Assembly (NCBI GenBank): GCA_015709205.1
Contig: JACCQO010000001.1
Coordinates: 143,748-207,747, forward strand
Direction: 5' to 3'
Length of the DNA: 64,000 nucleotides
DNA from: Desulfovibrionaceae bacterium
GTDB lineage: Bacteria; Desulfobacterota; Desulfovibrionia; Desulfovibrionales; Desulfovibrionaceae
The position numbers and the translations under genes are program-made. A model generated the notes under the pieces. That model worked only from the letters and a program-made list of their open reading frames with translations. It had not been told where the DNA came from and did not search any database. This document shows positions 12,900 to 26,395 of the stretch, piece by piece (positions within the stretch are counted from its first letter, which is position 1; every line of letters starts with the position of its first letter).

Positions 12900-15800
12900 C
12901 GAATCAGCCCCGCGGATGTGGGGAACACGGCACCTGGGCCCACGTCTGCTTGGTCGCCGTCGGATCATCCCCGCGGGCGCGGGGAACACCTGCTGCGCGA
13001 GGCCCGGCTGTACGCCATGGGCGGATCATCCTTGCGGGCGCGGGGAACACAGCCCCTTGGCCCTGAACCAGGCCAGGGCGTCCGGATCATCCCCGCGGGC
13101 GCGGAGAACACTCGTTGGCGAACCGGGTGCGCACCACCTCGGGCGGATCATCCCCGCGGGCGCGGGGAACACGTGCCGAACCGCCAGTGCTACATGGCCG
13201 AGAACGGATCATCCCCGCGGGCGCGGGGAACACTCAAGGAAGAAATGAAGCGGCTACGCAAGCAGCGGATCATCCCCGCGGGCGCGGGGAACACGTTAGG
13301 CGATCGTCAGCACGCGCCAGAGTTTCCGGATCATCCCCGCGGGCACGGGGAACACCCCGAGGAGTCGGTGAAGGACAGGCCCAGGGCCGGATCATCCCCG
13401 CGGGCGCGGGGAACACGCCTACAAGGGCCAGATCGGCGGCGTGTCCATCGGATCATCCCCGCGGGCGCGGGGAACACATCACCGACGGCACGAACACCGC
13501 GCCGTTCCGCGGATCATCCCCGCGGGCGCGGGGAACACGAAGACCATTGCACGCCGCGCCAGGCGCACTTCGGATCATCCCCGCGGGCGCGGGGAACACC
13601 GCACGTCCCGCGCGATGCGCACCAGCCGCGCCGGATCATCCCCGCGGGCGCGGGGAACACCTGCAGACCTTCCGGTCGGTCTCCGGCGACACCGGATCAT
13701 CCCCGCGGGCGCGGGGAACACCTGGAGCAGCACGTCGTCCAGCATCAGCCCGGCGGATCATCCCCGCGGGCGCGGGGAACACCGCGTGAAGCGCACATCC
13801 AAGGCAAGCTTGGGCGGATCATCCCCGCGGGCGCGGGGAACACTTTGGGCACCCCCACCTCTCTTCCTCTCTCTTCGGATCATCCCCGCGGGCGCGGGGA
13901 ACACTGCCGCGGGTCGATTTTCTTTTGCGACTTGGACGGATCATCCCCGCGGGCGCGGGGAACACTGGTGCGGGAACTGCAGGCTGACGGTGACGAACGG
14001 ATCATCCCCGCGGGCGCGGGGAACACCCGCCGCGCTCCAGGATGGCCTCCTGGGGCGACGGATCATCCCCGCGGGCGCGGGGAACACTCGCTGAGCCACG
14101 CAGCGATCTCGGCGGGGTCCGGATCATCCCCGCGGGCGCGGGGAACACGTATCCGCGCGCACTCGTCAGAGCAAACATCCCGGATCATCCCCGCGGGCGC
14201 GGGGAACACGCACCATCATCGAAGACTCGGAGCGGTTTCAACGGATCATCCCCGCGGGCGCGGGGAACACCATGTCGGCGACGTCCTTGACCTGCCCGCC
14301 GTCGGATCATCCCCGCGGGCGCGGGGAACACATCATTCTGCGCGATCCTGCGGGGACATGGCTCGGATCATCCCCGCGGGCGCGGGGAACACGTCGAGGG
14401 GGTGCGGCTGCTGCGGATCAGGAACGGATCATCCCCGCGGGCGCGGGGAACACGCCACACCGAGCATAGGCCCGGCGCTCGGCTGAGGATCATCCCCGCG
14501 GGCGCGGGGAACACGTAGGGGAGACCTTGTCTGACGACGGCGTGACCGGATCATCCCCGCGGGCGCGGGGAACACGTCCGGAGGACGGCGTTGCGCACGG
14601 TCGGGTTCGGATCATCCCCGCGGGCGCGGGGAACACTGGTTAGCTATCACTGAGCGTGGACACGTCCACGGATCATCCCCGCGGGCGCGGGGAACACGCG
14701 GCACGGTTAGCCCTGCCGGTACGCTTGACCGGATCATCCCCGCGGGCGCGGGGAACACCGTCTGCTGGTCCACGGTGCCCGCGTCGTCCGCGGATCATCC
14801 CCGCGGGCGCGGGGAACACGACTGGGTTGCATAGGCCATGTCTGTTCTCCTCGGATCATCCCCGCGGGCGCGGGGAACACGTGCGCGGCTATGTTTCGGC
14901 CATCCGTTCTCTCGGATCATCCCCGCGGGCGCGGGGAACACCGCGATCCCGTGGCGCTCATCTACATGACCGACGGATCATCCCCGCGGGCGCGGGGAAC
15001 ACCCGTCATTTTCGGCATCGGCTGGGTCACATTCCGGATCATCCCCGCGGGCGCGGGGAACACTATACAATCCCCTCATTCACAGGATAGTTCCACGGAT
15101 CATCCCCGCGGGCGCGGGGAACACTCGAGACTACCCGAGGCGAAGACGAAATTCGTCGGATCATCCCCGCGGGCGCGGGGAACACGCCGCCGTCAACACA
15201 ACGTCCAAAACCCATGCCGGATCATCCCCGCGGGCGCGGGGAACACATACATGTTTCCGAGTCGGCATACACCGTCCACGGATCATCCCCGCGGGCGCGG
15301 GGAACACCCGACACCGGCCAGGAACACCTCGCGCGGCGTCGGATCATCCCCGCGGGCGCGGGGAACACTCGGTAACGCTGCGGCCCGACCCATCCGGCCC
15401 CGGATCATCCCCGCGGGCGCGGGGAACACGCAACTCAATGAGCTTTCCGGCCCACTCCCCCGGATCATCCCCGCGGGCGCGGGGAACACGGAGTAGCTGC
15501 GCATTATGCTCCCCTCCTCACCGGATCATCCCCGCGGGCGCGGGGAACACGTCATGAGACGCGGGCAACTAGAGACTGGCGTCGGATCATCCCCGCGGGC
15601 GCGGGGAACACTGGGTATTAAACAAGAAAATGAAAAAGGGGCGCGGATCATCCCCGCGGGCGCGGGGAACACTAGCAAGCATTTAGCAGGGTTGCCTAGG
15701 TTGTCGGATCATCCCCGCGGGCGCGGGGAACACGACATCATGAGCCTGCGGGCCATGCGCATGGTCGGATCATCCCCGCGGGCGCGGGGAACACGCGTCC

Positions 15801-16952
15801 GGGATGCCGAGGGCCGCGCGCAACTGCGGATCATCCCCGCGGGCGCGGGGAACACGGACAGCTCGTCGAATGCCAAAGGCGCGCGAGCGGATCATCCCCG
15901 CGGGCGCGGGGAACACTAGTATTTGCCTGCCAGCTCGAACGTGGGCTGCGGATCATCCCCGCGGGCGCGGGGAACACGAGATTACCCAATCACTAAAGGG
16001 GATAGGGGCCGGATCATCCCCGCGGGCGCGGGGAACACGGGTGATCACGGGTCCGGACACGGGCCCGCGTCGGATCATCCCCGCGGGCGCGGGGAACACG
16101 CCGGCCAGGTCCTCGGGTTCGATGCGCGGATCGGATCATCCCCGCGGGCGCGGGGAACACCACGCGAACATGAGGAACCCGCCAGGATAGGACGGATCAT
16201 CCCCGCGGGCGCGGGGAACACGCGAAGAACTTGTCCGCGAAGAGCGCGGAAACCGGATCATCCCCGCGGGCGCGGGGAACACCGCCGGAGGACCTGCACA
16301 AGAAGGACCTGGGGCGGATCATCCCCGCGGGCGCGGGGAACACAGCTCGGTAAGCGTGGAGCAGTTGAAGTTGGTCGGATCATCCCCGCGGGCGCGGGGA
16401 ACACTACGATTGTCATGACAATTACGGCGTCTAGGTCGGATCATCCCCGCGGGCGCGGGGAACACTAGTAAAAAAACGCATAGTAGCTAGCCATAGGCGG
16501 ATCATCCCCGCGGGCGCGGGGAACACGCCCCGAAATAGGATTAACGCGGAGCCCTAAGCGGATCATCCCCGCGGGCGCGGGGAACACGTCTGGCCAAAGC
16601 CCGCCAATTCCGCCTCGCGCGGATCATCCCCGCGGGCGCGGGGAACACCTGGGCTGGAGCCCGAACGGCCGGGCCCGCGACGGATCATCCCCGCGGGCGC
16701 GGGGAACACACGCGCAGCAGCTGCACGCCTCCGGGAATGGGCGGATCATCCCCGCGGGCGCGGGGAACACCGCTTGTGCCAAGGTTTGCGCGACTATCTC
16801 GTCGGATCATCCCCGCGGGCGCGGGGAACACGTGGCGATGGAGGATCCCTGCATGCTGCTGGCGGATCATCCCCGCGGGCGCGGGGAACACGCATGCTGG
16901 TGGGCGGGTGCGCGATGACCAATCGGATCATCCCCGCGGGCGCGGGGAACAC
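12900..16952 (-). CRISPR. Type I-E CRISPR array, 67 repeats and 66 spacers
   Basis: A 29-bp repeat recurs every 61 bp. On the + strand it starts CGGATCATCCCCGCGGG and ends CGCGGGGAACAC. Spacers are 32 bp, with a few of 31 or 33. Counting repeat starts from 12900 to 16924 gives 67 repeats. The orientation of the I-E consensus means the crRNA is read from the minus strand, with the leader at the right beside cas2. In that direction each repeat is 5 nt, a 6-bp stem with a 4-nt loop, and the 8-nt handle AUGAUCCG. Consistent with this, degenerate repeats cluster at the left, leader-distal end (12900, 13022, 13083, 13327). Many spacers are visibly more AT-rich than the host. Confidence 0.98.
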
Positions 16953-17145: not shown

Positions 17146-18390
<1,245 letters not shown>

Positions 18391-18403
<13 letters not shown>

Positions 18404-19074
18404 CGCCGCACCAGCAGCAGGCCGCAGCCGAAGGCCTTGGCCTTGCCCACCCCGTTGAACAACGCCGCGCGCACCCGCTCCGCGTCCGCCACCCGGGCCA
18501 CGCCCTGGTAGTCCAACGCACTGAAACGGATGGCGCGCTTGCGCGGCACGCTCGGACCCAGGCGCATGTCGTGCTGCATGTAGCCGTCCGCGCGCAGGGT
18601 CTGGGACAAGAACTCCAGCCCCAGCGCCTCGCCGCGCGCCAGCAGCCAGTCGCAACCGGCCTGCTGCGCCAGCAACGGCCGCTGCGGCAGCCCGTCCTCG
18701 GGCACGCCCTGCCGCAGCAACTCGTGACGCGCGTGCATGACCACGTCCACGCGGCGCTTCACGCCCCGCTCGTCCGTAACCACACGCACCGGATTGGCGC
18801 GCAGGCTGAAGCGCAGCAGGTCACCGGCCCTGAGCGCCGGATCATACTCCCGCGTCCGAACGCCGAACCCGGCCCCGTTCCCCGGCCGCCGGTGCGAAAC
18901 CACCAGATATTCCAGTCCAGAACCGTCCATGCGGCGGAAGAGGAAGTCGCGCGGCGCGCCGTCCGCGCCGCCGAACAGCCGCCACAGGGCCTGATGCGCG
19001 CCGTAGAACCCCGAACGCGCCAGTGCGCAGGCCGTCACGGTCTCGGTCACCGTCGCCTTGGTCATGTACATCAT
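18391..19074 (-). CDS. cas6e: pre-crRNA endoribonuclease Cas6e (Cse3)
   Basis: A 227-residue RAMP protein that should cleave the repeat at the base of its hairpin and leave the 8-nt 5' handle. It shows the Cas6e N-terminal pattern with a histidine in GFYGAHQALWRLF, DFLFRRMDG, and the glycine-rich RAMP loop near the C-terminus (GVGKAKAFGCGLLLV). Its start overlaps the cas5e stop by 4 bp (ATGA). Confidence 0.94.
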
Positions 19075-19817
19075 TCACCTCCCTGCTCCCGCATGCCGGG
19101 AGCGGGCGCGCGCAGATGCGCCTCGGCGCGCCGCTTGAATTGCCAGGCCGCCCGCGACGCCAGCGCGTCGTGCCGGAACACCGTCTCCGGAGCCTCGACC
19201 CAGCCGTCCTCCACGTACACGTCGCACGGCACGCCCCGCCCGGGGCACAGCCGGGACAGCAGTTGCGGGCAGCCGTAGCCGGCCAGGGCCTCGAGCACCG
19301 TATCCGCTTCGCGGATCTGCGGCCCCAGGGGCAAGGCCGCGGGGCAGGAACGCCGCCCAAGGTAGGGAATGAACGCCGGGGCGTTGAGTGCGGCGGCCAG
19401 TTCCACCGGGGTCCTTTCCGTCGCGGCGACCACGGGCCAGAGGCAGACCGTAAACAGCGCGTCCTGCAGGTAGGTGCGCTGCGAAACGGTGGTCGAGAGC
19501 GCGGCGGACTCCGGACGCATGTCCACCAGCTCGTCGCGCCGAGTGCGGCAGCGCCCGGCCCACTTCCCGGCCGGCGTCTGCACGGTGTGGAAGTCCGTGA
19601 CCGGCACGCCCGGCGCGTCCACGCGCACGGCAAAGCCCCACTGCGCGTGCAGTGCGCGGTGCGCGGCCTCGTCGGCGCGGTCGATGCCGAGCGCCCCGGC
19701 CACCAGCCCGAGGACGGCCGTCTTCGAAGGGCGGTCCCAGGAATCGCGGATCACGTTCACGGCCACCGAGCCCCAGGAGGCCAAGGGCCCGTAGAGTTGG
19801 AAGAGCACGTGTTCCAT
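19071..19817 (-). CDS. cas5e: Cascade subunit Cas5e (CasD)
   Basis: A 248-residue RAMP-fold subunit that caps the crRNA 5' handle. The N-terminus LFQLYGPLASWGSVAVNVIRDSWDRPSKTAVLGLV is the signature of Cas5. It begins 4 bp after the cas7e stop. Confidence 0.95.
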   Translation of the reverse strand: MEHVLFQLYGPLASWGSVAVNVIRDSWDRPSKTAVLGLVAGALGIDRADEAAHRALHAQWGFAVRVDAPGVPVTDFHTVQTPAGKWAGRCRTRRDELVDMRPESAALSTTVSQRTYLQDALFTVCLWPVVAATERTPVELAAALNAPAFIPYLGRRSCPAALPLGPQIREADTVLEALAGYGCPQLLSRLCPGRGVPCDVYVEDGWVEAPETVFRHDALASRAAWQFKRRAEAHLRAPAPGMREQGGE

Positions 19818-19821
19818 GGCC

Positions 19822-20922
19822 CTACTCCGCGACGAAGTCCCAGACCTCGGCCATGGAACCGCCCTCGCCCACCAGGCATTCCCTGGACTCGAAGGCCATG
19901 TCGTAGCATCCGTCCATGGTCTTCTTGGCCGTGCGCAGGGCGTCCACGGCCTGCGCCAGCATGCCCGCGTCCTTGTGCGGCTCGATGGGATCCAGGAAGG
20001 CCACGGACAGATTGCGCGGCTGCGCCGGACCGCGTTCGGCCAGCAGGTAGGAGGCGTAGGCGCGCGAGCCGAAGCTGTTCTGCTTGCCGGAGGGGGCCAC
20101 GGTGCAGGCGGCCTCGGCCAGGGCGCGCAGGGCCTTGCGGGCCAGATCCTCGTTGCCGTCCAGGTTCTTCACCAGCAGGCCGCGGTCCACGCAGACGTAG
20201 AGGTAGAAAAGCCCGGCCCCGAACTCCTGGATGCCCATGTGCCCGGCCCCGGCATCCTCCTCCATGCGGTTGAGGTCGTCCACGGCGGTGAAGAAATCGT
20301 CCTCCACGTGCGCCGTGTTCACGGAGATGGGGTGCGCCACCTGCACAGCGGCATCGGTGTTGAAGGCGGGCTCGGCCGCGATCATGCGCCCGAACATGGC
20401 CACGTCCACCGGACTGGACTTGCGCAGAAGCACGAGTTCCTTCTCGTCGATCTTGGCGCCGCCCTTGAAGACGTCCAGAAGCTCCTGCACCGCGGCGATC
20501 TCGGCCGGGCCGATGTGCACCATCTGCTCGGTCTCCAGCACGGCGAAGGGGTTCTTGGCGTCCTTGGCCTTGGCCTTGCCGAAGCAGCCGGCGATGGCCC
20601 CGGCCAGATCCAGCGCCTTCTTGTCCGGCTTGGCCTCGCGGTCCAGGTCCAGCGGGGCGGCCAGGGCCTCGGCGTAGGTCGCGCCGCGGGTCAGGGCCAG
20701 ATAGGCCCGCAGCCCGGCCTCCTTGGTGCGCACGCCCATGTGCCCGGCCAGGGCGGACTGGAACGCATCGCTCGTGCGCCAGGCGCGCTTGATGCACTGG
20801 GAGGAGATGCGCAGCCGCATCCGCCCGCCCACGATGGCGGTCTTGGGGCGGCCCAGATCGTCGCGATTGAGGTTGGCCGGGGGATAGTTGGTCAGAATGT
20901 GCATTTGAATAAAAGTGCTCAT
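19822..20922 (-). CDS. cas7e: Cascade backbone subunit Cas7e (CasC)
   Basis: A 366-residue protein that forms the helical crRNA-binding backbone. It is recognised by its start MSTFIQMHILTNYPPANLNRDDLGRPKTA and RLRISSQCIKRAWR, and by the internal DVAMFGRM and VEDDFFTAVDDL blocks typical of Cse4/CasC. It is separated from cas11 by 9 bp. Confidence 0.96.
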   Translation of the reverse strand: MSTFIQMHILTNYPPANLNRDDLGRPKTAIVGGRMRLRISSQCIKRAWRTSDAFQSALAGHMGVRTKEAGLRAYLALTRGATYAEALAAPLDLDREAKPDKKALDLAGAIAGCFGKAKAKDAKNPFAVLETEQMVHIGPAEIAAVQELLDVFKGGAKIDEKELVLLRKSSPVDVAMFGRMIAAEPAFNTDAAVQVAHPISVNTAHVEDDFFTAVDDLNRMEEDAGAGHMGIQEFGAGLFYLYVCVDRGLLVKNLDGNEDLARKALRALAEAACTVAPSGKQNSFGSRAYASYLLAERGPAQPRNLSVAFLDPIEPHKDAGMLAQAVDALRTAKKTMDGCYDMAFESRECLVGEGGSMAEVWDFVAE

Positions 20923-20931
20923 GGGGCGCTC

Positions 20932-21501
20932 CTATTTGGTTTGGTTCTGTTCGCGCTGCTTGGACGGCAGGGCGTTGTAGTAGTTCTTGGCCCATTCCAC
21001 GCGGGTCGCGTCGTCCCACTTGAAGCAGGCCCAGGCCAGGCTCTTGAAATTGGTGCGCTGGCCGGTCATCTTCACCAGCCGCACGAGCATGGTGTAGAGA
21101 TCGTCGGGCTCCTGGATGCGCAGGAGCTTGCGGAACCGCGCCGGGGCCACGGCCGCCGTGCCGCCACCCTCGCGCGCGGGAGCGGCCATCAGACGCGCGA
21201 AGGGCGTGCCCTCGACCGGGGTGCGCACATGGGCCCCGATGCCCGCGAGCATGGCCAGCGGCACAAGCTCCGCCTCGGCAACGCCGATGCCCCGGGCCTC
21301 CAGCAGCGGCAGCAGCCCGCCACCGAAGGCCGCGGTCATGCAGACTTCGAGCGGGCTCTTGGCGCGGCACAGTTCCGCGCGCATTCCACGGTCAGGCGCT
21401 TCGCGCTCCTCCTCCTGGTCGGCCGAAGCCTCCCGAAAGCCGGAGACACTCTTCCACCACTTGCGGAACGTCTTCTGAAACTCCTCACGTTCGTGGATCA
21501 T
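20932..21501 (-). CDS. cse2: Cascade small subunit Cas11e (Cse2/CasB)
   Basis: A 189-residue, largely helical small subunit; two copies stabilise the non-target strand in the E. coli complex. The ATG at 21501 (MIHEREEFQKTFRKWW) overlaps the cas8e stop in an ATGA junction. The longer open frame upstream is cas8e read out of frame. The C-terminus carries the typical FKSLAWACFKWDD segment. Confidence 0.9.
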   Translation of the reverse strand: MIHEREEFQKTFRKWWKSVSGFREASADQEEEREAPDRGMRAELCRAKSPLEVCMTAAFGGGLLPLLEARGIGVAEAELVPLAMLAGIGAHVRTPVEGTPFARLMAAPAREGGGTAAVAPARFRKLLRIQEPDDLYTMLVRLVKMTGQRTNFKSLAWACFKWDDATRVEWAKNYYNALPSKQREQNQTK

Positions 21502-23156
21502 CGATTGGCTCCTTGTTCTTGGGGTGCTGCCTGCTCCGCGAATTCCGGGGATTCCGGGGGTTCCGGGCGCTCCGGACGCCGCGGCGGCAGGATTCCGAGA
21601 ATGTCCCAAACGCGGGACTTATCGCCGTGCGTGTAGCCGCGCAGCTTGCCCCAGGCCGCGCCGATGCGCTCGAACTGCGTGTCGTCCGGCGAGACGGCGA
21701 GCACGCTCTCGTTGAAGATGGCCGCGGCCCGGTTCTGCAACGTCTCCAGGAACACCCGGCGCGCGGCCTTGCGGGCGTCCTCGTCGTCCAGACGGGCCAG
21801 GCAGCGGTCCACCGCGTCCAGAAACGCGGGCTGCGTGGCGGACCAGAAGCGGACGTTGACCGCCTCCAGGAGCGTGGAGCCGTTGGGCGACTTCTGTTTT
21901 TCGTCGGCCAGGGCACCGCCCACGGCGGAATAGAGGCAGGAGCGCACGTGGTCCGCGCAACGCACCAGCCGTTCGACCTCCTCGGCCTGCTGCTTGCGGT
22001 CCTCGGAGGTCGCGGCCACGCGCGCAGGCATGGTCTCCTCGGCCCAGGCCAGGGGCTTCATGTTGTCCATGGCATACCCGCAGAACCGCAGGCGGATTTC
22101 GTGCACGTCACGGTACTCGCTGTGCAGCCGTTCGAGATGGCGGAGGACCGCGGGCGACGGGTGGCGGCGCGTGACCATCTCGTCGCCGACCTTTTCGCGC
22201 TCCGCGAACAACAGTCCCCACCAGTCTCGATAGCAGCCCATCAGCGCCGTGCCCTTGATGGAAAGCGGCCCGGCGTTCTGGTCGATGCGCATGGGCGTGA
22301 GCGGATGCCGCCATTCGCCGGAGTATTTTCCGCCATGGTGCACGGCCCGGAAGGAGGTGACCACCGGCCCGGAAATGCCGCAGACGTCGCACTGCCCCTC
22401 CGTGTCTGGAGCAGTGAGGCGGATGCGCCGGGGCATGGACCAGAACACGTGCAGCGGATGCACGTTCCCGGCGAGGATCGCTTCATCATTGCTGCTGGTG
22501 CGGGTCGGCGCAAGCCAGGGGAAGATGCCGCCCGCTCGCGGGGCCTGCGCATCGGTGCCCTTGTCGTAGTCCTTGCGGAGCACGACGTTGCTCCAGAGCG
22601 TCGCCCAGAGCGTGTCGCCGAGCACCAGGCCGCTCACCGGCCCGCCGCCGCGCAGACTCACACGATGCCCGCGCCCGCCGCTCGGGGCGAATTGCTGCAG
22701 CACCTGCAGCGCGGCGGCCGCGCAGCTCGGGCACAGGGCGCGCACGGCTCCGGACCGGACGAACATCTCGCTTCCGGCCGCGCTGATCAGCAGGTCGCGA
22801 ATGTCCCAGTCCTTGTGCAGGTCGCCCGGCGTGAAATCCTGCTGAAAAGCCGGGCCGTCCTCATTGAACAGCTCGAAGGCGTCCGCTTCCTTTGCAAACG
22901 CCACGCGCAACGATTCGGGCTGGGGCGGGGCCGTGAGCAGCCGTTCCCACGCCTTGTCGTCGGCGGGTTCCAGGGTGGTCTGCAGCAGTCCGACGAGAAA
23001 TTCGGCCACGCCCGCCTCGAAATCGGGCCGCGGCCAGTCCATGGCCACGACGGGATTAACGTCCATCCCGTCCGTGATCCCCCACGGCGGAATGGCCTCG
23101 CGCTTGCCATCCCGCCGAACAACCGGGATCCAGGCTTCAGAGATCAAGTTGAACAT
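21498..23156 (-). CDS. cas8e: Cascade large subunit Cas8e (Cse1/CasA)
   Basis: A 552-residue large subunit that reads the PAM and recruits Cas3. It begins FNLISEAWIPVVRRDGKREAI, the standard Cse1 N-terminus, and carries CDVCGISGPVVTSFR, a zinc-finger-like CxxC region of Cse1. It is the first gene of the Cascade operon and has an unusually long non-coding upstream region of 518 bp that contains its promoter and a candidate regulatory RNA. Confidence 0.95.
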   Translation of the reverse strand: MFNLISEAWIPVVRRDGKREAIPPWGITDGMDVNPVVAMDWPRPDFEAGVAEFLVGLLQTTLEPADDKAWERLLTAPPQPESLRVAFAKEADAFELFNEDGPAFQQDFTPGDLHKDWDIRDLLISAAGSEMFVRSGAVRALCPSCAAAALQVLQQFAPSGGRGHRVSLRGGGPVSGLVLGDTLWATLWSNVVLRKDYDKGTDAQAPRAGGIFPWLAPTRTSSNDEAILAGNVHPLHVFWSMPRRIRLTAPDTEGQCDVCGISGPVVTSFRAVHHGGKYSGEWRHPLTPMRIDQNAGPLSIKGTALMGCYRDWWGLLFAEREKVGDEMVTRRHPSPAVLRHLERLHSEYRDVHEIRLRFCGYAMDNMKPLAWAEETMPARVAATSEDRKQQAEEVERLVRCADHVRSCLYSAVGGALADEKQKSPNGSTLLEAVNVRFWSATQPAFLDAVDRCLARLDDEDARKAARRVFLETLQNRAAAIFNESVLAVSPDDTQFERIGAAWGKLRGYTHGDKSRVWDILGILPPRRPERPEPPESPEFAEQAAPQEQGANR

Positions 23157-23364
23157 TTTTTCCTCCCGATAGAGCTTGCGGCTGGATTACCGCGACAACA
23201 TGACGTACGATACAGGCGCATATATGATCCGATGATGGCGACCGGATCACGAACCGCATCCCCAGTTCCCGGAGTCGCTTCGCGAGAGCGACCGGCCCGA
23301 ACGCCGATTCCAACCCGTCGGGCCACGGGAAAGGGGTGCGGGGACAGCTTAGGGTTCGCCAGCT

Positions 23365-23388
23365 GGGAAATACGCTTCCCAATGGGAA
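23365..23388. promoter_or_regulatory. Operator-like inverted repeats in the cas8e leader
   Basis: GGGAA (23365-23369), TTCCC (23376-23380) and GGGAA (23384-23388) form two overlapping inverted repeats, the tighter being TTCCC-AAT-GGGAA. They lie about 25-45 nt downstream of the predicted cas8e transcription start, so they could be a repressor site or an RNA hairpin. Confidence 0.3.
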
Positions 23389-23417
23389 GAATTAGCGTTG
23401 TGCCGTGCATGTGAGAA

Positions 23418-23447
23418 GGAATACTCACTGCAGCGTTTTTTTGTCAA
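23418..23447 (-). promoter_or_regulatory. Predicted cas8e operon promoter
   Basis: On the minus strand a perfect -35 TTGACA (23447-23442) is followed 18 bp later by TATTCC (23423-23418). The start would be near 23411, giving a leader of about 255 nt before cas8e. The -35 box overlaps the end of the site matched by the candidate guide RNA described at 23517-23617. Confidence 0.55.
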
Positions 23448-23470
23448 TTCATCATGATAATTAAATACTT
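23446..23470 (-). promoter_or_regulatory. Candidate Cascade-binding site with AAG PAM at the cas8e promoter
   Basis: On the minus strand AAG (23470-23468) directly precedes TATTTAATT (23467-23459). These nine bases are identical to the first nine of the guide in the neighbouring crRNA-like RNA, and AAG is the canonical type I-E PAM. The remaining guide positions do not match without gaps, so a full R-loop and Cas3 cleavage would not be expected. A 22-nt footprint would reach the TTGACA -35 box. Confidence 0.6.
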
Positions 23471-23516
23471 TGTTTTTTTGTAAGATTTAATTTTTCCAGT
23501 CTGTTAGCAATAGAAA

Positions 23517-23617
23517 GCGGCAGCAATTTATTGCCGCCGCCTCTCCCCCCGCCGTGCGGGGAACACTCAAATCATCTCAAATTAAATACGGTTCATCACC
23601 AAACTATTGGCGAACAT
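23517..23617 (-). ncRNA. crRNA-like regulatory RNA (CreR/CreA-type) between cas3 and cas8e
   Basis: Read on the minus strand. The first degenerate repeat (23617-23589) has exactly 29 nt in the layout of the array repeat: 5 nt, a 6-bp stem CGCCAA/UUGGUG with a 4-nt loop, and the 8-nt handle AUGAACCG (7 of 8 identical to the array). The stem sequence differs on both sides yet still pairs. A 22-nt guide follows (23588-23567) beginning UAUUUAAUUUGAG. The second degenerate repeat (23566-23547) keeps GUGUUCCCCGC and its pairing arm GCGGGG but loses the handle. A GCGGCA/TGCCGC hairpin (23537-23517) then precedes TTTCT, a possible terminator. Such RNAs are known to guide Cascade to repress cas or toxin promoters through short seed matches; the role here is inferred. 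Confidence 0.7.
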
Positions 23618-23623
23618 TTTTTA

Positions 23624-23653
23624 AGAATAACTCAACTTTCCACAAAAAGCCAA
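23624..23653 (-). promoter_or_regulatory. Predicted promoter of the crRNA-like RNA
   Basis: On the minus strand TTGGCT (23653-23648) and TATTCT (23629-23624) are spaced by 18 bp. The predicted start falls at about 23617, the first base of the upstream degenerate repeat. Both boxes match 4 of 6 consensus positions. Confidence 0.45.
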
Positions 23654-23674: not shown

Positions 23675-26395
23675 TCAAAAGTATTCGCTCCGAGATACGA
23701 ACAGTCCCGTTTTATGCTCATATTCGACTTGTACAGACGCTAAACTGCTGCGCCCCCCCTGTACAACGCCAGAAGCGATCCAACCGTTGGGAATCCTTGC
23801 CACCAGCGGCACCACCAGCGTGTCGTCGTGGCCGCGCCAGGTCGCACGCAGAGTCGCGATCTGCGCCGCGCATTCCGGGGACGGGGCGTCTACCGAATCC
23901 AGCAGGGTCCGGCGCACGCGCAGTTCGCTCAGGGACCAGGCCCGCTGCTCCGTGGCCGCCGCGCACCACGGGGCCAGCCGCGTTCCGTCCCAGCGCGCCA
24001 GGCGTAACAGGCGCGTGGGCTCGCCCAGGCGCGTGGGGATGCGCTCCTCGGCGTCCCAGCGGTCGCCAAAGGCCGTGGCGTAGCCGCGCTCGAATTCCAG
24101 GGTGTTGAACGCCGCCATCTGCGCCATGGCCCGCAGTTCGCCTTCCGCCCGGATGTCGCGCCTGGCAAGCCCCTCCGGAACCTCCACCGCGTCGTCGCCG
24201 TGCACCGCCTCCACCAGGGCGCGCGCGTCCCCGGGCAGGTCCAGGCCGCCCCGCTCCAGCAGGACGCGCGCCGTGCGCCACAGGACGCCGTGCACCGGAT
24301 AGACCCAGCGCCCGCGCGAAAAAAACGCGGCGTACCAGTCCGCGCCCGGCGCATCCGTATACTCCGGCCCGTGCACGAGCAGCCGCGGCGTACGCCCCAA
24401 GCCGCGCCGGTGGCGGCAGAGCCGCCCCACGCGCTGGATCAGCGCCTCCACGGACGCGAGGTCCGAAACCATAAAATCGAAATCCACGTCGAGAGAGGCC
24501 TCGGCCACCTGCGTGGCCACCACGATGCGCCCGGCGCGGTCCGTGCCGTGCTTGCCGAACAGGTCCAGGAGCCGCTGCTCCACGTCCAGCCGGTCGCCGG
24601 CGGCAAACCGCGCATGAAAGAGCAGCACCCGGTCCGGGTCCACGCCCTCCATGGCCCGCAGCGCCCCGCAGGCCTCCACGGCATCGTCCACGGCGTTGCG
24701 CACCCAGCACGCGCACCCGCCGCCCCGCGCCACGGCGGCCAGGGCCGCGCAGGCCTCGTCCGAATCGTGCGCCCAGTCCACGGCCACGCGGCGCGGGGCC
24801 CACGGGGCCGGTTCGACGGCGCGCTCCGCCACGCCCGTCCCGGCCGAAACGGCCCCGGCCAGCGGATAGGCCACGGACGCCGGTACGGCGGGCTCGACGC
24901 CGAGGCCCTCCTGAAAGGCCGCGGCCAACCGGCGCTTCAGGTTCAGCGGCAGGGTGGCCGAGAGCAGAACGGCGCTGCCGCCCAGCGCGGCGTGGAAGCG
25001 CAGCAGGTTGCAGAGCAGCGCGTTCACGTAGTCGTCGTAGGCGTGCACCTCGTCGACCACGAGCACGTTGCGCGCCAGCCCGAGCAGCCGCAGGCTCTGG
25101 TGGCGCGCGGGCAGCACGCCGAGCAGGGCCTGGTCCACGGTGCCGACCCCGGCCGGGGCCAGCAGCGCCTTCTTGGCGTTGTCCGCGAGCCACCCCGCGC
25201 ATTCGGGCCCGGCCTCGTCGCCGTCCACCGTGCCCGCCGCGCCCGGGCCCTGCGCCGCGATGCCATCCAGCGGGATGGACGCGAGATAGGCGTCCACCAG
25301 CCGCCGCCCGCCGTGGGCCAGGGTCAGCGACGGGCGCTCCCCGGCCGCGAACAGCCGCCGGTAACACCCGGCCAGACGTGCGTACATGGCGTTGGACGTG
25401 GCCATGGTCGGCAGGGCGAAATAGAGCCCCTGGGCCAGTCCTTTGTCCATCAGCCGCGCGGCCAGAATCAGGGCTGCCTCGGTTTTGCCGCTGCCGGTCA
25501 GGTCCTCGAGGATGTGCAGCTGCGGGCCGTCGGCCAACTCCGCGTCCCGGGCGTGGCGCTGCAGCGGCGTGGGCGGGTGACCGATCAGTTCCGGGAAAAG
25601 GTCCTCGAAGCGCAGCCCACCGCGCGCCGCCGCGGGGAGCACCCCGGACGCGTCCAGGGCTTGGCGGGCCGACGGCAAGGCGCACCGGTGATAATAGTCC
25701 GCATAGTCCGCGATGTGCGGCGCGGGCGGGAAGAACCGCTCGTCGGACCCGAGCCAGTCCGCGAGCACGCAGAGCCCGGCCAGCAGCCACGAAAACCGCG
25801 CGCACGCCGCGAGCTCGGGCATGGGCCCCGGGCTTGACGGCGGCAGGAAAAGTCCGACGCACAGTTCGGCGTATTCCAGGACCGCGACGAGGTCGTCCTT
25901 GGAAAAGCACTCCTCGCGGTTCACCGCCGGACGGGCCGGGACGGGCACGCCGTGATGTCCGAACACGGCGGCGGCCAGCGGCGCGAGCGCCAGGTCCACG
26001 TCCTCGGGGTCGTGGGCCTCCAGCCCCAGCCGACTGCGCAACAGGGGGAAGACATGGCGCGGCAACAGGGCCGTGGCCAACAGGGTATGGTGGCGCTCCC
26101 GGCCATAGGGCACGGAAGGCGCGCGGCCCTGCAGCCGCCGGAGCAAATCGGGCCGCGAGCCCTGGAACACGTGGGAGAACTTGCCCGCGTCGTGCAGCGC
26201 CACGAAAAAAACGGCCGCCCCGGGCCACAGCGCGCCGGGGAACGGGCACAACGCGCCCAGCCGCGCCCCCAGCCACGCGTCCCGCTCGACCAACGCCTGG
26301 GCGCACGCGGCCACGTCCAGGCCGTGGCACGCCAGGGGATGGTACGTCCCGTCCCCGGCTTCCCGGCCCGCCTTGCCCCAGTATCGTGCGATCAT
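23675..26395 (-). CDS. cas3: CRISPR-associated helicase/nuclease Cas3, type I-E
   Basis: A 906-residue protein. The N-terminal HD nuclease has the HDAGK metal motif near residue 70 and conserved histidines before and after it. The superfamily 2 helicase follows with motif I TGSGKTEAAL, motif II DEVHAYDD, motif III SATLP and motif VI QRVGRLCRHRR. It degrades DNA marked by Cascade. It is on the same strand as the Cascade operon but separated from it by 518 bp containing a terminator-like hairpin and two promoters, so it is probably transcribed separately. Confidence 0.96.
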   Translation of the reverse strand: MIARYWGKAGREAGDGTYHPLACHGLDVAACAQALVERDAWLGARLGALCPFPGALWPGAAVFFVALHDAGKFSHVFQGSRPDLLRRLQGRAPSVPYGRERHHTLLATALLPRHVFPLLRSRLGLEAHDPEDVDLALAPLAAAVFGHHGVPVPARPAVNREECFSKDDLVAVLEYAELCVGLFLPPSSPGPMPELAACARFSWLLAGLCVLADWLGSDERFFPPAPHIADYADYYHRCALPSARQALDASGVLPAAARGGLRFEDLFPELIGHPPTPLQRHARDAELADGPQLHILEDLTGSGKTEAALILAARLMDKGLAQGLYFALPTMATSNAMYARLAGCYRRLFAAGERPSLTLAHGGRRLVDAYLASIPLDGIAAQGPGAAGTVDGDEAGPECAGWLADNAKKALLAPAGVGTVDQALLGVLPARHQSLRLLGLARNVLVVDEVHAYDDYVNALLCNLLRFHAALGGSAVLLSATLPLNLKRRLAAAFQEGLGVEPAVPASVAYPLAGAVSAGTGVAERAVEPAPWAPRRVAVDWAHDSDEACAALAAVARGGGCACWVRNAVDDAVEACGALRAMEGVDPDRVLLFHARFAAGDRLDVEQRLLDLFGKHGTDRAGRIVVATQVAEASLDVDFDFMVSDLASVEALIQRVGRLCRHRRGLGRTPRLLVHGPEYTDAPGADWYAAFFSRGRWVYPVHGVLWRTARVLLERGGLDLPGDARALVEAVHGDDAVEVPEGLARRDIRAEGELRAMAQMAAFNTLEFERGYATAFGDRWDAEERIPTRLGEPTRLLRLARWDGTRLAPWCAAATEQRAWSLSELRVRRTLLDSVDAPSPECAAQIATLRATWRGHDDTLVVPLVARIPNGWIASGVVQGGRSSLASVQVEYEHKTGLFVSRSEYF

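Follow-up and report, generated by a model that had tools for sequence, protein, structure and literature searches.

A crRNA-like guide unit between cas3 and cas8e of a Desulfovibrionaceae type I-E CRISPR locus and its candidate target at a promoter before cas8e

The type I-E CRISPR locus of a Desulfovibrionaceae bacterium raises the question of what a repeat-guide-repeat unit does in the gap between cas3 and cas8e. We analysed a stretch of 64,000 nucleotides (the window), whose minus strand carries a complete type I-E locus:

23675–26395, minus strand: cas3 (PRK09694, 2.1e-126, below the curated cut-off; cas3_core, 3.1e-58)
21498–23156, minus strand: cas8e (Cse1/CasA; TIGR02547, 4.1e-68)
17146–21609, minus strand: cse2, cas7, cas5, cas6e, cas1 and cas2 of type I-E (gene set search)
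12961–16952, minus strand: CRISPR array (62 exact copies of a 29-nt repeat)

The cas3–cas8e gap is 518 bp long and holds the repeat-guide-repeat unit from 23617 to about 23545. The gap gave no match in Rfam (E up to 1) or, used as DNA query, in plasmids, and an exact search of viral contigs with the repeat and seed found none. The array spacers matched four phage records at a poor 64–70% identity, with no usable protospacer, so the PAM is not readable from them.

The unit and the elements around it are as follows:

23624–23653, minus strand: possible weak guide promoter, TTGGCT-18-TATTCT (read by eye; absent from the promoter scan)
23589–23617, minus strand: degenerate repeat 1 (psiR1), 29 nt, with handle ATGAACCG at 23596–23589 (fold and identity to the array repeat)
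23567–23588, minus strand: guide (psiS), 22 nt (sequence reading)
23545–23566, minus strand: repeat 2 (psiR2), whose conservation ends at the hairpin (sequence, fold and comparison with candidate modules)
23509–23541, minus strand: terminator-like hairpin (23541–23519) and T-rich tail (terminator scan)

Repeat 1 is identical to the array repeat at 17 of 29 bases, including 7 of 8 in the handle, and is predicted to adopt the same dot-bracket fold with different stem letters. The guide follows at 23588–23567 and repeat 2 begins at 23566; a GTTC-plus-stem element lies 3′ of the guide in 19 of the 21 candidate modules compared below (one by a relaxed rule; chance about 0.02 per locus). The preliminary description, which had read a repeat in the array-repeat layout with a changed but pairing stem, a 22-nt guide and a second repeat kept to its hairpin only, is borne out in these respects. 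It had also proposed a terminator and a guide promoter. The terminator-like hairpin is present, and by itself lies within chance (one found; shuffles mean 0.7); the promoter is visible by eye, but weak and unlisted by the promoter scan, which listed zero minus-strand promoters and missed the guide-side and cas8e-side ones alike. The 113-nt guide unit is predicted to be more stable than 200 of 200 dinucleotide shuffles (z −3.65). The window contains, outside its array, a crRNA-like unit with a processing stem and handle. An ordinary CRISPR array in the gap was ruled out, as there are two unlike repeats only, not several near-identical ones.

Two features on the cas8e side of the unit are relevant to what the guide might recognise:

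23459–23470, minus strand: target, with AAG at 23470–23468 and a nine-base copy of the guide start at 23467–23459 (sequence, shuffles and genome count)
23418–23447, minus strand: promoter-like TTGACA-18-TATTCC, with TTGACA at 23447–23442 (9 of 12 consensus bases)

The TTGACA box lies 20 nt behind the AAG; the promoter is unlisted because the scan rule demands a final T. These positions confirm the earlier claim of a seed copy behind AAG, beside a TTGACA −35 box upstream of cas8e. The claimed distance of 79 bp does not hold, since the two copies are 121 bp apart when measured between their starts; a value near 79 results when counting from the end of repeat 2. The 12-mer AAGTATTTAATT, comprising AAG and the nine bases, has a single copy in the 4.25 Mb genome, namely the target site. 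In dinucleotide shuffles of the gap (guide unit omitted, both strands), a run of at least nine arose behind AAG in 2 of 10000 and behind any of four PAMs (AAG, ATG, AGG and GAG) in 6 of 10000. A PAM-blind scan of both strands finds other sites that match the AT-rich guide equally well or better, as would be expected if the unit were a leftover repeat-spacer pair and its nine-base match a meaningless coincidence in an AT-rich gap; the rarity of the match in shuffles, the uniqueness of the 12-mer and the geometry shared with relatives make such a coincidence very improbable. On the cas strand, PAM-blind, the AAG site is the top match for the guide, the guide itself excepted. The window's guide does match part of a PAM-flanked sequence at the cas promoter, but weakly: the nine bases, position 6 included, form the shortest and weakest pairing of the module set, without the extended pairing at positions 13–17 found in relatives.

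Comparison of guides with their own gaps carries the argument further. A hairpin-and-handle rule, blind to targets, picked 22 of 102 non-redundant loci; two of them (L106 and L108) are ordinary arrays in the gap and were left out, giving 20 candidates. With a core defined as guide positions 1–5 and 7–11, 17 of the 20 candidates match at 9 or more of the 10 core positions in a site preceded by one of the four PAMs, versus 2 of 380 swapped guide-region pairs. When the PAM is ignored, 18 of 20 reach at least 9 core matches, the two below being the window and L026. The latter (no second repeat, core 8, PAM TTT) was kept in the sets of 20 and 21 and dropped from the counts on 19 modules. These are the modules besides the window, 16 in the order Desulfovibrionales and 3 elsewhere, made up of 18 of the 20 candidates and L017, which the handle rule had missed and which was included manually once its match had been noticed. 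Their PAM-blind best site follows AAG in 17 modules, GAG in 1 and AAA in 1 (L115, outside the four-PAM test and included here). Of the 342 swapped pairs of these modules, 14 yield at least 9 core matches, and AAG precedes the site in 6. The preliminary description had named joint variation of guide seed and promoter site, with AAG kept, as a check in related genomes, and the relatives show it.

The matches also follow a rhythm. Specifically, 16–19 of the 19 modules match at each of positions 1–5 and 7–10, whereas positions 6, 12 and 18 match in 5, 4 and 4 of 19, versus 38, 28 and 24 of 38 for their neighbours. Cascade flips every sixth base out of the crRNA–DNA duplex, so that loss of matching at 6, 12 and 18 is the pattern due for Cascade-bound pairs. 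Sites were chosen without position 6 but with positions 5 and 7, which favours the contrast at 6; of 12 and 18 and the bases flanking them, all but 11 counted at most in breaking ties. Close pairs (L008/L012, L010/L009 and L118/L120) mean that the rows are not fully independent. Taken together, the sequence comparison makes it well supported that a crRNA-like guide would be aimed by Cascade at a promoter in the cas3–cas8e gap. The anatomy of the unit, its unique site and the recurrence of this arrangement among relatives, with guides that match their own gaps, are direct observations. Some modules have tandem target sites: L115 has two with AAA, and L005 two or more with AAG (by eye, three).

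The window's genus comprises one genome only, and the distribution of modules was examined across the order. Relatives of cas8e (E up to 1e-40) occur in 27 of 349 genomes, of which 17 carry a repeat-guide-repeat module with a self-matching site in the cas3–cas8e gap (the window genome, G082, G127, G100, G076, G078, G095, G138, G036, G049, G298, G323, G168, G318, G025, G035 and G023). An ordinary array occupies the gap in 2 of 27 (G294 and G167), and no module was found in the stretch read upstream of cas8e in 8 of 27 (G148, G121, G315, G299, G150, G266, G339 and G010). In G150 (L119/L081), a ParE-like ORF was seen by eye in the gap before cas8e, without a guide unit. Outside the order, an alignment-based contig search gave three modules, in Dethiosulfatarculus (L029), a Rhodocyclaceae MAG (L065) and a Hyphomicrobiales MAG (L096); they were drawn from the best 80 of 330 named loci ranked by similarity and therefore represent a sample, not a census. 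A contig search with the window protein alone as query found no relative. The cas8e of L065 groups among Desulfovibrionaceae in the tree, which may reflect transfer or a binning error.

Within two close cas8e pairs (100/100 in the tree), one member has a module and the other does not (L118 with, L120 without; L010 with, L009 without), hinting at recent gain or loss. This turnover between sister species is what one would expect if the window held a decaying module, a former CreTA or CreR that has lost its toxin, whose pairing has eroded to nine bases and which no longer functions, and the window's stem letters are the most degenerate of the set and its pairing the shortest. We consider such decay distinctly unlikely, since repeat 1 folds like the array repeat despite its changed stem and keeps the handle at 7 of 8 bases, the seed is unbroken over nine bases including position 6, and the PAM and −35 box are in place.

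If Cascade is aimed at this promoter, the question becomes what the promoter drives. Among the 17 modules of the order, an ORF of some kind follows the targeted promoter in 14 (one ambiguous). In particular, a Shine-Dalgarno (SD)-led ORF of 27–36 aa with a basic start and hydrophobic rest is found in 8 of 17 (L005, L006, L007, L008, L010, L012, L013 and L015; the SD of L008 is GGGG-like), and a likely hydrophobic ORF in 2 of 17 (L121, with a GTG start, and L055/G318, where it continues into cas8e). An SD-led mini-ORF of 12–16 aa was read by eye in 2 of 17 (L115 and L118), a RelE-like gene lies in 1 of 17 (L003), and ORF status is ambiguous in L016. No SD-led ORF follows the targeted promoter in the remaining 3 of 17, namely the window, L014 and L017. 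Of the three modules beyond the order, L065 lacks one as well, L029 is targeted on the other strand and the case of L096 is ambiguous. In L014, L017 and L065 (the last outside the order), the site lies 59–127 bp from cas8e with no SD-led ORF between, the arrangement that an autorepressor requires.

The listed SD-led ORFs are more hydrophobic than other SD-led ORFs (8 versus 51, p 0.001), in a test that missed L005 and L015 because of its spacing rule and included one non-hydrophobic ORF of L118; hydrophobicity as high as that of the listed ORFs (2.38–2.73) occurs in 3 of the 51 others. Pfam and NCBIfam gave no family for the eight peptides (one chance match at 0.12). The RelE-like call in L003 comes from sub-threshold matches (YafQ 0.019; RelE_StbE 0.02) together with gene order; PDB sequences gave no match. 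At that place (L128:3317–4049, genome G082), an antitoxin-like HTH_3 gene (2.6e-11) is followed by the guide unit and then, past the guide's target, by the RelE-like gene. Among the relatives examined, which were the top-ranking others out of 102 genomes with a match, 14 of 14 have the HTH gene directly after the toxin gene. On this gene order, L003 therefore seems to be a type II toxin-antitoxin pair split and reordered around the guide. In genome G076 (L131:6463–7051), a HigB-HigA pair (PF05015, 2.9e-19; HTH_3, 4.2e-13) shares the gap with a guide unit. With peptide ORFs in eight modules and likely in two more, and a RelE-like gene in one, the commoner form of the module in the order is CreTA-like.

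For the window itself, the relevant stretch is the one between the targeted promoter and cas8e:

23157–23411, minus strand: expected cas8e leader, without an SD-led ORF and strongly structured

No ORF of 20–45 aa with an ATG or SD-led GTG start ends before cas8e on either strand of the stretch. Three ATG ORFs are present, none preceded by an SD, and on inspection two of the three are too long and not hydrophobic; the sole SD noticed is that of cas8e. The earlier statement that the gap has no toxin frame agrees with this search of the leader for an SD-led ORF, which found none. The 255-nt leader has a fold z of −2.40, with 2 of 200 shuffles equally stable. In the predicted structure, a pyrimidine stretch pairs with the SD of cas8e, and the leader structure is possibly a second layer of control.

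The absence of a recognisable frame bears directly on a CreTA reading, in which the guide represses an unrecognised toxin encoded in the last 250 bp ahead of cas8e (a toxic RNA, perhaps, or a mini-ORF lacking an obvious ribosome site) and loss of Cascade would arrest the cell. The window site lies 311 bp from cas8e, as in toxin-bearing relatives; the hydrophobic ORF occurs at that place in eight modules of the order and likely in two more, among them L121, whose cas8e is the closest to that of the window; the leader is structured; and CreT RNAs are described as poorly conserved (PMC8501985). Nevertheless, given the inventory of ORFs above, we regard a hidden toxin as unlikely, with some probability left for a toxic RNA.

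With no SD-led ORF in the window and a promoter facing cas8e, CreR-like autorepression, in which the Cascade-loaded guide represses the cas8e promoter, is the best reading, with a probability of about 0.57. A one-spacer mini-CRISPR transcript in the gap would be cut by Cas6e into a crRNA-like guide, and guide-loaded Cascade would bind at the AAG-flanked site, immediately ahead of the −35 box of the promoter reading into cas8e. Bound Cascade would block this promoter without calling Cas3, which we propose is due to the short guide pairing. A shortage of Cascade, its saturation by other crRNAs or an anti-CRISPR block would open the promoter, so that more Cascade is made. We infer the transcription, processing, binding and repression in this scheme, and likewise cas8e, rather than an unseen toxin, as the controlled gene. 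Published work (PMC5904413) indicates that five seed bases with AAG suffice for Cascade binding, and that promoter occlusion drops sharply with PAM-distal mismatches, six of them. This loss of occlusion, the nine-base pairing and the 311-bp distance are points against autorepression. Of the type I-E autorepressor put forward in the preliminary description, the Cascade guide at the gap promoter is upheld by the relatives, while the step to cas8e autorepression is only plausible, toxin-like cargo being commoner in the order.

The window points to one small candidate regulatory RNA that is easy to test; of greater interest is the set of modules across the order, whose cargo changes. We suggest tentatively, at slightly less than even odds, that the order shares a cassette between cas3 and cas8e, composed of a mini-CRISPR guide and a Cascade-gated promoter, whose cargo was swapped in evolution (peptide toxins, a type II toxin separated from its antitoxin, cas8e itself) and of which the window shows one state. 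If so, CreTA and CreR would be interchangeable forms of one element, not separate inventions. Modules with and without toxin cargo at one genomic place would make the interconversion of CRISPR addiction and autoregulation testable, and such natural guide-target pairs would allow the six-base rhythm of Cascade to be read from evolution alone.

Both CreR and CreTA have already been published for type I-E, and the idea of autorepression is not new. In the open-access literature searched, we found no description of Desulfovibrionales guide modules and no report of a RelE-type toxin under a CreA-type guide. CreTA of Haloarcula and Halobacterium (type I-B) and of Acinetobacter (type I-F) has two degenerate repeats flanking the guide, the repeat-guide-repeat layout of the window, but belongs to other subtypes and has RNAs as toxins (PMC8501985, PMC10097628). 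The guide pairs at positions 1–5 and 7–11 in H. hubeiense (PMC8501985) and at all but 6, 11 and 18 in Acinetobacter (PMC10097628), both fitting the position rhythm of the modules here. CreTA of the type I-E locus of Citrobacter rodentium occupies the cas3–casA gap, with repeat- and spacer-like segments, a PAM-flanked target at the promoter and, as toxin, a 96-bp ORF requiring translation (PMC12055562). It shares the gap, the repeat- and spacer-like layout and the promoter target with the window, and its translated small ORF is comparable to the peptide ORFs of the relatives described here; it differs in that its guide lies on the strand opposite to the ORF and its PAM is ATG, and the window has no such ORF. 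In CrePA (Shu et al. 2024, as reviewed in PMC12737573), a protein toxin with a KilA-N domain is under a CreA-type guide, as the RelE-like gene of L003 would be, although no KilA-N domain was noticed in the modules here. CreR (Cas-regulating RNA; Liu et al. 2023, Cell Host Microbe) is a crRNA-like RNA partly complementary to a cas promoter, without a toxin (PMC12737573, PMC13131331), and its autorepression is cited for types I-B, I-E and V-A (PMC13131331). The window differs from CreR in that its site is 311 bp from cas8e, and resembles it in having a crRNA-like unit and a partial match at a cas promoter.
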